From: Pseudovirgaria hyperparasitica
Taxonomy: Eukaryota > Ascomycota > Dothideomycetes > Acrospermales > Acrospermaceae
DNA: 64,000 bases
Assembly (NCBI RefSeq): GCF_010093815.1
Contig: NW_022985556.1
Coordinates: 161,339-225,338, forward strand
Reading direction: 5' to 3'
Shown here: positions 5,033-61,470 of the stretch, in pieces
How positions within the stretch are numbered: position 1 is the stretch's first letter
Layout of the letters: each line of letters starts with the position of its first letter
Program-made: the position numbers and the translations under genes
The notes under the pieces: model-generated
The model's input: the letters and a program-made list of their open reading frames with translations, nothing else
What the model was told of the DNA's origin: nothing
Database searches by the model: none

Positions 5033-5040
5033 TACGCGCG
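5033..5040. repeat. 8-bp target-site duplication, left copy
   Basis: TACGCGCG, identical to 5481-5488. The two copies directly flank the inverted-repeat element, which is what an 8-bp staggered insertion (hAT-type) leaves behind. Confidence 0.75.
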
Positions 5041-5480
5041 CAGACGTGAGCATATACAATCGGATACAATCCGAAGTACTAGATTAGGATTGTATGATTA
5101 GTCACCCTAAAAGTACAGATTAAGCTTGGAATCTATGCTAAGGGATTAAGATTGCTTATATTAGATTAATTAAAGTGGGTGTATAGCCGGGGCCCTATAT
5201 TAGGCTATATTCAGGCATTATTTATGCCTAAGGCTGCCATATTAGTGCCTTAGGCTAGACTTTGGGCCTTAGGTAGAAATAATACCTAAATATGGCCTAA
5301 TATTAGGCCCGCAGCTATTTACCCCACTTTATTCAATCTAACACAATCAATCTAACCAATTAGATTAAGATTGTACCGTCTTAGCAATCATTTTGAGTCG
5401 TAGATTGAGCTTGTATTCTCTATCAAAATTTTGGCCCAGATTGAGATTGCATAGATTCGGATTGTATATGCTCACGTCTG
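5041..5480. mobile_element. non-autonomous hAT-type element (MITE), 440 bp
   Basis: Both ends read CAGACGTGAGCATATACAAT inwards, giving a 21-bp perfect terminal inverted repeat (5041-5061 and 5460-5480). The left arm then has a 10-bp insertion before the match resumes with CCGAA. An identical 8-bp direct repeat, TACGCGCG, flanks the element. Eight-bp duplications with termini beginning CAG are the known signature of the hAT superfamily. The interior is AT-rich, non-coding and strongly self-complementary: AGATTAATTAAAGTGGG near 5164 faces its complement near 5322-5339. Several GATTGTAT/AATCTAA motifs repeat near both ends, as subterminal transposase sites often do. No transposase is encoded, so mobilisation would need a partner elsewhere. 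A minus-strand ORF running through the right end is a shadow. Confidence 0.8.
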
Positions 5481-5488
5481 TACGCGCG
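5481..5488. repeat. 8-bp target-site duplication, right copy
   Basis: TACGCGCG, the exact copy of 5033-5040, immediately outside the right inverted repeat. Confidence 0.75.
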
Positions 5489-39478: not shown

Positions 39479-40186
39479 AAGTGAAGGAGGCATCGTACTG
39501 GTTTCTGATGACAATAGACACTACATTATACTGATCTAGAAATGAACGAGCGCATAAACGTAGATTGTTTTCATCACAACACAACCGTAGTTCAATCAGC
39601 CATAGGCATCAACAGTAAAGTGACTTCCCTCTCGGTGTGATATACGAACAGTATCTTGATAGAAGACGTACAGAGTTCCCATGGGATTGGATATTTATAT
39701 AGCCAGCATGTGCTCGATTGAAAACGCTGGGTAGGGGTCGTCAAAGAACGCCAGGAGAACGAGCAAGCACTTTGATTGCGGTCGTTGTCTACTATTATAC
39801 GAATGATTGTATAAGCCTATCATCAAGGGGTATAGGGTCTTATCTAGGACGACTTGTATAGCGTGATAAACAAGTACGTATAGGAGTGGCTTCGCCGGTC
39901 GCCGGTCGTCGGTCTAGCGGAACCAACCTCGGAGGCCGCTGCCCCAGCTTTTGCTAACCCAATTAGGACAGCTCCACAACACCGACTTTGCTCATAGTGG
40001 ACGTAAGACGGTCCTATAACCGACGCCTGCAATGGCTCTTCTACTGTGCCGCAGTGCGAGCGCGCTGTTACGCCCTTGTATTCTGCGTATGTCTGCTGTC
40101 TTCCTCTTGTACACCCCATTATACCACAGATCGCCTTCAATTGTTGATTTTTTGGGCAGACGGAGTTCCGCCCTCACATAACGACC
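39479..40186. other. intergenic region, no gene seen
   Basis: Short spacer between the monooxygenase and the ligase. ORFs of 98-160 codons here are featureless or shadows of the ligase exon. Confidence 0.5.
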
Positions 40187-42618: not shown

Positions 42619-44892
42619 TTAAGCTGAGCAGCCCTGGAGCACATATGTCTCCGTGATCGTTACCGTGGTGGCCGCACCACCCACATCAGTCGCCCCTCCA
42701 GCAAGTGGCGCCCCAGGAGTCACTCGCGGAGTTACCACGGGCGCCACGGAGGGAAGTTCCATCGGCGTTGAAACACCGGTGCTAGGAAGACTGACGAACC
42801 CGCCAAAGCTCTTGCCCGCCGGCGGTGGCGGTGGCAGCGATGAAGCGATCGCACCAACACCCATTTCAGGAACAGGGGTCACGACGCTGGTGATTAGAGT
42901 GCTGGGGCTTGAAGGAAGGGGGGCGAACTGGATTGGAGATCCAGACGGCGCAAGGATGGAGTTCTGGTTTGCGACTGACAGCGCAGGGATGGAGTTCTGG
43001 CTTGCGATTGACGGCGCAGGGATGGAGTTCTGGCTTGCGATTGACAACACAGGGATGGAGTTCTGGCTTGCGATTGACAGCACAGGGATGGAGTTCTGGC
43101 TTGCAATTAACGGCACAGGGATGGAGTTCTGGCTAGCGACTGACAGCACAGGCACCGGGCTTTGGAATAGTGCAGCAGAGGAAGCTGTTGGTGGTGCCCC
43201 TGACGGGCCCACAACGGCGCCCTGGGAGACGGCTGTCGAGACTGCATTCAATGGCAGTATGGGAATTCCAGTGTTTCCAGAATTGATATCGGCAGGAACT
43301 CCACCAGACATGGTCGATAGGCCGGCTCTCATCGCGATCAGGTGGTCGGGCGAATCCCAGTTCTCTTCGCCGAAGCTCCAGGCCATGACACCACCGAGTT
43401 TGAGCGGGACGACGATAGTTTGAAACTTTTTCTGTACGTAATCTTTCGAGTCCCAGCTCCAGAAGATGTTGAGCTCAGTGTCGAGGTATGTGAGGCCGCC
43501 TTTGATGGTGTCGTCGCTTGGTTTGGTCGTTGCGGTGCGCCACGACTTCCAGACGTCTGGGCCTTCACATTGACTGCCGGAACCACTGTAGGTGGGGTTG
43601 CAGTGGCCATAGCCACAGTAGTCTGCTGTGTTACCGCTGTTTATGATTAGAATGGGAATGCTGAGAGGAGACAAATGGTTACGTACCACCAACCGTCAGT
43701 GGAGCAGCAATAGCCACTGCCACATTGTAAACCTTTCTCGGGTCCACACTGGCCGTCCGTCGCAGGTGAGAGAGAAGATGGTGCATCTTTCGCGTTCTTT
43801 GCCTCAAAGGTCATGGAGCCGGAGTGATTGGTGTCGGCACCATTGGAAGCCTCCAGTTCTACAGTAGCACATCCGAGCCCTCCTGTAGATGTACACCCGG
43901 GCTGGACACCGAACCATTTAGCATACAAGGCTAGACCTAGGTTTGCTTTTTGGGGATCTAGGCCAATATTCAGGTATTCCTGGACCGTGTCGAGGGTATC
44001 TTGTACACAGGTGTGGTGGCTTGTGGTTTTGTCTCGCCTGTTCATGATGTCGTAGGTCATGATCTATACGCTGTCAGGGGATTCGCGTGCTAACAAGAGG
44101 GAAGAAACTCACGTTCACAAAATCAACATTGTCGAATATGTTTTTGCCGTTAGCTGCGTTGAAGATGAGCATGTCGCCCTTCTTGCCAGGAGTCGCTATG
44201 GAAAGAACCTTGTCGGTTCCCATGGTTGTCTTTATAGTCTTTAGCATGTTGATGTAGCCTGTGGTTTCAGTACTGGTCGAAGGAGGGGCGCCTCCTGCAA
44301 GATAGTAGACGTCGTTTCCACCAGGGTATTCCCAATCAATATCTGCGGCCGTCAGCATCTCCGAGTCCATCACACTCCCTCACGGTGTTACTCACCAACG
44401 CCGTCAAAGTGAGCGCCGCCCCCAAAATCATGCGTGACGATCTGCTTGATGTTTTCGGCAAAAAGGCTCAAAGAGGCGTCGCTCTCGATAGCCTTTCTCC
44501 ATCCAGTGGTAGGATCATCGTTCCACCCACCGATGGCGAGGCTGACCTTAATATTGGGATTGAGTGCCTTGATAGCTTTGAGAGTGTCAGCGTGCCACTT
44601 ATGTCCTGGCTCTGTATACTGAAATGTGGTCCAGTCTATAGTTTGGTTGTTGAGATTATGGCTTAACATGAAGGCCAAGATGACGTTTGTGACGCCTTCA
44701 AAGGATGTTGCGGTCATAGGAACATTGGGATGCCATCTATTCATGTTAGTTAGTACGACTGAGGGAGGGCGACGAGAAGGAGTGAACTTACTGGTCATAG
44801 TACATAACCAAGCGAGGGGCCGAAGTGGTGTCTTGAGCGACGCTTCGTGTTACCCCTAGAAAAGTCGTCAAAGTCCTCAGTATGTTCCTCAT
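42619..44892 (-). CDS. secreted GH18 chitinase with nested CBM18 and repeat tail
   Basis: Hydrolyses chitin outside the cell or in the wall. Exons are 44892-44792, 44736-44396, 44342-44113, 44063-43687 and 43636-42619, giving 688 aa. The ATG at 44892 gives a signal peptide ('MRNILRTLTTFLGVTRSVAQ'). An earlier ATG at 44986 is in another frame. The GH18 barrel shows 'VSLAIGGWNDD' and the catalytic 'FDGVDIDWEYPGG' with Glu152 as acid, a motif assembled across an exon junction. After 'LGLALYAKWFG', a Cys-rich hevein-type chitin-binding module (CBM18, residues ~330-373, eight or more Cys, 'CGSGYCCSTDGWCGN') interrupts the catalytic domain. The barrel then resumes to 'LGGVMAWSFGEENWDSPDHL'. The C-terminal ~220 residues are Ser/Pro/Thr-rich with 11-residue repeats and end 'TETYVLQGCSA'. 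No clear GPI signal. Confidence 0.94.
42952..43149. repeat. six tandem 33-bp repeats in the chitinase gene
   Basis: Six consecutive in-frame 33-bp units, each starting A(A/G)GGATGGAGTTCTGG on the plus strand, encode on the minus strand an 11-residue unit close to I-P-x-x-S-I-A-S-Q-N-S. The four middle units are nearly identical, indicating recent expansion. Lengths in multiples of 33 keep the frame. Confidence 0.93.
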
Positions 44893-47909: not shown

Positions 47910-48564
47910 TCAGTCCGAGTCGCTGGCACTCCCAGTCGGTCCGTCATCGTCATCGTCTGCCACGACGTCGTTGCCAACATTCATGGCATACTCAGCCTTC
48001 TGCAACGACGTCCGCAGTGCATCGTTTCTAGGGTCGACGAGCTCGAATGGCTTAAGTTTGGCCTTGTTCCGTATCCGTGGATCGCAGCCGGCATCAATCA
48101 AGATGTCTACGACAGACTGACCTTCCTCCCATTGCTTCGGTGCTAGTGAATTGACATATCGTACTGCTTTGTGCAGGGGTGTGTCTTGCTCCATGCGGTC
48201 TATTTCGTCGATCTCGAGGCCTTCTTGGTCGAGGAGAATGTCTAGAATCTCATCTGAAATGCATGTCAGCTGTAGTTTCTTTGGCCGGCGGGAGTGGACG
48301 CACAGCTACCACACTCGGCGGCTACATGTAGAGCCCCCTTCCCTACGCCATTCCGTGCCTCGTTGAGTGTTTTGGCAATATACTCGGTGTCCTTGCCTTT
48401 CGGGGCGCCCTTAGACAGGTCTGACAGGACTTCTTCGAGAAGTGTAGTATTGTCACGTCGGCATGCTTCAAATATAAGCTCGCGGGGAGAGGCACCCTGC
48501 TAATTCATTAGCCCATAGCCAGTGATTGTCGAGATGGATGTGAAGGACTGACCTCGTCAGCCAT
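47910..48564 (-). CDS. small ankyrin-repeat protein
   Basis: Exons are 48564-48553, 48499-48310 and 48253-47910, giving 181 aa. The first coding exon is only 12 nt ('MADE'). The first intron has competing acceptors TAG and TAGCAG three bases apart, so one residue (Gln5) may be optional. Ankyrin-type motifs are visible: 'NGVGKGALHVAAEC' followed by 'EILDILLDQEGLEID', and 'EQDTPLHKAVRYVNSLAPKQ' followed by 'VVDILIDAGCDPRIRN'. The N-terminal helix 'SPRELIFEACRRDNTTLLEE' may be a first repeat. The tail is acidic ('VVADDDDDGPTGSASDSD'). This is a protein-interaction module of unknown partner, head-to-head with the Pol III subunit RPC11 gene across 375 bp. Confidence 0.86.
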
Positions 48565-60443: not shown

Positions 60444-61470
60444 GGCTCACGTTCGAGTGTCTGGCACACTCGATCAAGCCCTACGTCCTATCTTCTCCCT
60501 GACACTCCCTGCATGGCTCACGTTTGAGTGCCTCGCAAACACTCATTCAAGCCCCTCCCTCCTGTCTTCACCTGTACTCTGGGTATGGCTCATGTTCAGT
60601 GTCTGGCAAGCACTCGTTCAAGCCTTCACCCTCTCAAGGCTCAAGTTCGAGTGTCTGGCAAGCACTTGTTCAAGCCCCTCCNNNNNNNNNNNNNNNNNNN
60701 NNNNNNNNNNNNNNNNNNNNNNNNNNNNNNNNNNNNNNNNNNNNNNNNNNNNNNNNNNNNNNNNNNNNNNNNNNNNNNNNNNNNNNNNNNNNNNNNNNNN
60801 NNNNNNNNNNNNNNNNNNNNNNNNNNNNNNNNNNNNNNNNNNNNNNNNNNNNNNNNNNNNNNNNNNNNNNNNNNNNNNNNNNNNNNNNNNNNNNNNNNNN
60901 NNNNNNNNNNNNNNNNNNNNNNNNNNNNNNNNNNNNNNNNNNNNNNNNNNNNNNNNNNNNNNNNNNNNNNNNNNNNNNNNNNNNNNNNNNNNNNNNNNNN
61001 NNNNNNNNNNNNNNNNNNNNNNNNNNNNNNNNNNNNNNNNNNNNNNNNNNNNNNNNNNNNNNNNNNNNNNNNNNNNNNNNNNNNNNNNNNNNNNNNNNNN
61101 NNNNNNNNNNNNNNNNNNNNNNNNNNNNNNNNNNNNNNCCTCACCCTCTCAAGGCTCAAGTTCAGTGTCTGGCAAACACTCGTTCAAGCCCAATCCAAGG
61201 CTCAGGTTCAGTGTCTGGCAAGCACTTGTTCAAGCCCCTCCGTCCTCATTTCGGTATGGCTCAAGTTCAGTGTCCGGCAAGCACTCGTTCAAGCCTATCC
61301 GTCCTGTCCTCACTCCCAAGGCTCAAGTTCAGTGTCTGGCAAGCACTAGTTCAAGCCGCACCCTCTCAAGGCTCAAGTTCAGTGTCTGGCAAGCACTTGT
61401 TCAAGCCTCCCTCTCCTTTCTCACTCTCAAGGCTCACGTTCAAGTGTCTGGCAAAACACTCGTTCAAGCC
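60444..61470. repeat. minisatellite with ~38-bp core, interrupted by N run
   Basis: At least ten copies of a core that begins GGCTCAAGTTCAGTGTCTGG and ends CACTCGTTCAAGCC. Starts are at 60444, 60515, 60587, 60639, then (after the gap) 61153, 61199, 61258, 61320, 61370 and 61431. Spacers between cores are C/T-rich and variable, giving periods of 46-72 bp. ORFs through it are artefacts. Confidence 0.9.
60682..61138. other. assembly gap (457 N)
   Basis: A run of 457 undetermined bases lies inside the minisatellite, so the array could not be assembled and the true copy number is unknown. Confidence 0.99.

Follow-up and report, generated by a model that had tools for sequence, protein, structure and literature searches.

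The window analysed here, a 64-kb stretch of the genome of the mycoparasitic fungus Pseudovirgaria hyperparasitica, carries at positions 5033 to 5488 a short sequence with inverted ends enclosed in a direct repeat, and the question raised by this locus is what kind of mobile element it represents and which enzyme could have moved it. The best answer, to which we give a probability of about 0.93, is a non-autonomous hAT MITE derived from the two ends of a resident hAT transposon of ~3.5 kb and a palindromic core, and presumably moved by the transposase of that parent. The find is well supported and ordinary: the MITE was inserted recently, and its hAT parent survives in the same genome in decayed form. 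A hAT family and its MITEs are thereby added for the Acrospermales, a little-studied order of the Dothideomycetes, together with a case of a MITE outliving its parent under RIP. No paper on the transposons of P. hyperparasitica was found in our literature search.

The element and its copies in the genome

The element occupies 5041..5480 on the plus strand, as established from its sequence, its genome copies and their alignment. Self-comparison revealed a perfect inverted repeat of its terminal 21 bp, starting with CAG; the left repeat, CAGACGTGAGCATATACAATC, lies at 5041..5061 on the plus strand and was also used in a genome pattern search, and the right one lies at 5460..5480 on the minus strand. 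Short terminal inverted repeats starting with CAG are typical hAT termini. Direct inspection of the sequence places the same unstranded target-site duplication, TACGCGCG, on the left at 5033..5040 and on the right at 5481..5488. Because the right flank past the duplication also begins with CAG, as the element does, the direct repeat reads 11 bp at this copy; the other copies set the length of the duplication at 8 bp. A first-pass annotation of this DNA had described a 440-bp element with perfect 21-bp repeats inside a perfect 8-bp duplication, and both the coordinates and the sequence agree with it. No stop-to-stop frame of at least 80 aa was found inside the element, and one minus-strand frame of at least 80 aa overlaps its right end. 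The motif GATTG/CAATC occurs 13 times, versus ~0.7 times in shuffled sequence, and its repeated subterminal occurrences may, as in other hAT elements, constitute candidate transposase binding sites.

The whole genome assembly (35,028,730 bases, 35.0 Mb, in 59 contigs) was searched for further copies. The 440-bp element matched 64 places, with 40 of 58 candidates scored, and the 21-bp terminal pattern, allowing at most three mismatches, was retrieved at 51 sites (29 forward and 22 reverse), against none for the same pattern written backwards. Several classes of uniform size emerged, as is expected of a MITE: the window copy together with two further 440-bp copies (identity to the window copy 97.7% and 97.5%), five of 462 bp, all ending on the right in CAGAGATGGG, and three of 221-222 bp (L034, L036 and L042). 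Three other copies measure 471-516 bp. Among the 21 copies for which both ends could be compared, 14, including the window copy, are flanked by a perfect 8-bp duplication and these 14 duplications differ from one another in sequence; one more copy matches at 7 of 8 positions and the remaining six at 1-3 of 8. In several of these six (L018, L019, L044 and L045) the copy is truncated or has diverged, so that its ends had to be guessed, and L016 and L037 likewise have no matching 8-bp duplication. Eight additional sites of the terminal repeat gave partial matches only, with no paired duplication, and no second, unoccupied copy of the insertion site was found in the same genome. The terminal repeat thus recurs well beyond the window, in copies of which most have a duplication of their own, and the annotated hAT-type MITE is borne out by this copy family, by these duplications and by the hAT domain of the parental elements described below.

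The left arm contains ten bases more than the right one, GGATACAATC, at 5062..5071 on the plus strand. This difference, already noticed in the first-pass annotation, had been put forward as a possible subfamily mark. All 17 copies in the alignment contain the ten bases without a gap (L041 has substitutions in them), and so do the left ends of three parents, those on C10, C3 and C25. Being found in every aligned copy and in the parents, they are no subfamily marker and constitute a family-wide trait of the left end; the sister classes are distinguished by their terminal bases and by their core.

Probable origin from a decayed hAT transposon

Larger elements with the same ends encode a hAT transposase in a decayed state. 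The C-terminal dimerisation domain of hAT transposases, PF05699 (Dimer_Tnp_hAT), gave eight matches in the genome, all above the cut-off and all interrupted by in-frame stops, and in four elements with MITE-type ends (C26, C10, C25 and C8) this domain lies 321-384 bp inside the left terminus. When its stops are read as X, the C26 remnant retrieves 58 proteins at E <= 0.001; most of these are hAT transposases from fungi (best 3e-49), identity is 27-38% for the majority, and the homologues of the remnant carry PF27041 together with PF05699. Those from Pyrenophora tritici-repentis and Cryomyces minteri, which carry both domains, are matched over much of the length of the C26 remnant, but at ~27-35% identity; the family described here is a distinct one, in another fungal order. 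The length of the parent, ~3.5 kb, was taken from the C25 copy (684 bp + 2,857 bp).

Three segments can be recognised in the MITE by comparison with these parents. The first 129 bp (5041..5169, plus strand; element positions 1-129) are 95.3% identical to the parental left ends on C10, C3 and C25, and the last 151 bp (5330..5480, plus strand; element positions 290-440) are ~91% identical to the parental right ends on C10, C3 and C55. Between them, the limits of the parental matches define a core of ~160 bp (5170..5329, plus strand) that could not be found in any parental element fetched and that is enclosed in an imperfect, unstranded palindrome at 5149..5353 (element positions 109-313), ~77% identical to its own reverse complement. 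The absence of this core from the fetched parents implies that the MITE is not a plain internal deletion. The core of the ~505-bp class, on the other hand, was found in the fetched parents, and this difference suggests that the ~505-bp copies originated as plain internal deletions, while the 440/462-bp class appears to have gained a palindromic core. The core was also considered as an independent nested MITE, an option that now looks unlikely: in the fetched loci it occurs only within MITE-class copies of the same family, the whole-element genome search having scored 40 of 58 candidates.

These elements suggest a mode of formation and movement. In the MITE, the palindromic core joins some 129 bp from the left end of the ~3.5-kb hAT to 151 bp from its right end, and the parental transposase would recognise the 21-bp terminal repeats and probably also use the subterminal GATTG/CAATC motifs. 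The MITE would then have been excised and inserted at a staggered cut, giving rise to the 8-bp duplication. The element resembles other MITEs of the hAT superfamily (class II) in that it has an 8-bp duplication, short inverted repeats with CAG/CTG termini, no coding capacity and a resident hAT with common ends; it differs from them by a palindromic core that none of the fetched parents showed and by the lack of an active transposase for the 440-bp family among 24 transposase matches.

These 24 matches bear on the main alternative, namely that a working transposase persists, either in a copy that the assembly left out or collapsed or in other isolates, and that the MITE is moving now. They were obtained with a full-length homologue (P0012) as query; 21 of them contain in-frame stops and the three stop-free stretches are short and belong to C55 and C39, leaving no complete open transposase among the 24 in a search that reads exons only. 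The least decayed copy, C55, has one TAG and one TGA in its matched stretches, a composition without RIP bias and the right end CAGAGATGGG, and it is cut by the end of its contig. Assemblies often break at repeats, and this truncation is one of the points in favour of a surviving enzyme, along with the single difference in 462 sites between the 462-bp copies L014 and L015 and the unmutated termini of the window copy. Against it stand the stops in most of the transposase stretches, C55 included, and in all eight PF05699 matches, and we consider this alternative unlikely, at about one chance in four. The suggestion in the earlier annotation that the genome may possess an active hAT transposase is therefore unsupported, as a full-length gene with the same termini is absent from the 24 matches; it keeps some probability because the best of them runs off its contig and the search reads exons only.

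Long-range end pairs and nested clusters

Some ends of the family face each other over much larger distances, opening a second alternative in which hAT elements of giant size (81-85 kb) would carry cargo and the MITE would be their miniature relative. On C10, two family ends lie 80,965 bp apart between identical 8-bp flanks, TCTACACG, and joining these flanks minus one duplication gives a continuous reading frame, the interrupted gene looking by eye like a beta-1,3-glucanase. A similar end pair on C3 (372973-458418; L058 and L059) spans ~85.4 kb, and its flanks agree at 7 of 8 bases. The content of the C10 block speaks against such a giant element. The 2.97-kb C55 element is found there in three collinear pieces (1-1116, 1124-2145 and 2681-2973), with repeats filling the intervals of ~50 and ~28 kb between these pieces of the hAT backbone; every 2-kb bin listed for the block is RIP-mutated (TpA/ApT 1.31-2.35), and the block contains two open frames of at least 150 aa outside its run of N (~656.8-659.5 kb). 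On C3, reading covered the outermost 10 kb on either side, and an insert of ~8 kb bounded by repeats splits one of these two pieces. The interior of the C10 pair thus forms no unit: a giant hAT is refuted there in favour of a backbone of ~3.5 kb interrupted by nested repeats, and C10:596781-677745 (L057, L067-L069, L072-L075 and L056) is an 81-kb nested, RIP-mutated transposon cluster. For the family as a whole, the reading of the MITE as a miniature relative of giant elements is very improbable. More improbable by far is the last alternative, a chance duplication beside a stray hairpin with no transposon involved: the CAG common to the right flank and the element does lengthen the apparent direct repeat, but 14 copies with differing perfect duplications and the empty backwards control dispose of it.

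A smaller end pair on C25 (39601-48426; L025 and L054) was identified by backbone alignment as the two ends of one hAT element with an insert of ~5.3 kb. Its flanks, GGTGTGCA at 39601 and GATATATA at 48426, differ at 4 of 8 bases, all by transitions; as both ends belong to one element, its duplication was probably eroded by RIP. This element adjoins open frames that resemble, by eye, a non-ribosomal peptide synthetase.

Nested clusters are documented in another fungus, Mycosphaerella graminicola, for which a published study reports 78 nested transposon clusters of 7.5-63 kb as well as MITE families, one of them with an 8-9-bp duplication (PMC4522978). The 81-kb cluster reported here is of a similar kind, but it concerns another genome and another family and its base element is a hAT.

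RIP-type marks and probable age of the insertion

The three 440-bp copies differ at 16 sites, of which all 16 are RIP-type (transitions in CpA/TpG context), with no transversion and no indel. This context accounts for 56 of the 175 C/G sites, so that the chance of 16 out of 16 is 1.2e-8. With variation of this type alone, the insertion of the window MITE looks recent, in line with what the first-pass annotation had proposed, and the inserted copy would have been struck by RIP afterwards, judging from the mutation signature. Compared with L010, the window copy differs at 11 sites, all RIP-type (10 G to A and one C to T) and all within 5122..5383 (element positions 82-343; unstranded), the element ends being unchanged. 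Polarity is uncertain at sites 82 and 162, because A is likewise present there in each of the five 462-bp copies and may be ancestral; at the other 14 of the 16 sites, L010 can safely be considered unmutated.

The window copy and L009 have 6 of 11 changed sites in common, against 2.2 expected (hypergeometric P 0.004). Transposition of an already mutated copy after RIP was considered for this excess and is unneeded: the same sites are also changed in left ends located on C10, C25 and C3 and are thus favoured positions, and at sites 82 and 162 the A may be ancestral.

The other size classes display contrasted patterns. RIP-type changes account for 21 of 27 variable sites in the five 462-bp copies; RIP context is found in 46 of 91 transitions among the ~505-bp copies and in 14 of 41 pairwise transitions among the 221-bp copies (L034, L036 and L042), these last showing no RIP excess, and as the 221-bp and ~505-bp classes are older, length and age are incompletely separated in this comparison. 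We tentatively propose, at somewhat less than even odds, that RIP strikes unlinked copies of 440-462 bp and not those of 221 bp, that it spares the outer ~75-95 bp, and that it would thereby kill transposase genes while leaving MITE termini mobilisable. If the length dependence holds, the family offers a small natural test of the minimum repeat length seen by RIP. The lack of RIP bias in the 221-bp copies recalls the ten MITE families of M. graminicola reported to be without CpA bias and all to have an average match length below 200 bp (PMC4522978).

Candidate DNA methyltransferase genes are located on C4, C20 and C5; the one on C20 (L085) is RID-like, its nearest counterpart among the named proteins listed being 'rid1' of Apiospora phragmitis (32%). 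A MAT1-1 alpha-box mating-type gene is present at C9:86250-86624, and the occurrence of this gene and of the RID-like methyltransferase agrees with RIP and with a sexual cycle. To our knowledge, P. hyperparasitica has been described only in asexual form, and young RIP-marked copies would, if the above proposal is true, mean recent sexual cycles.

Elsewhere in the window, a sterol C-14 reductase is encoded, and a 33-bp unit is repeated six times at 42954-43152 inside an open frame that gave a weak, below-cut-off match to Glyco_hydro_18. Tandem arrays with units of 46-112 bp flank a run of N on both sides at ~60444-61470.
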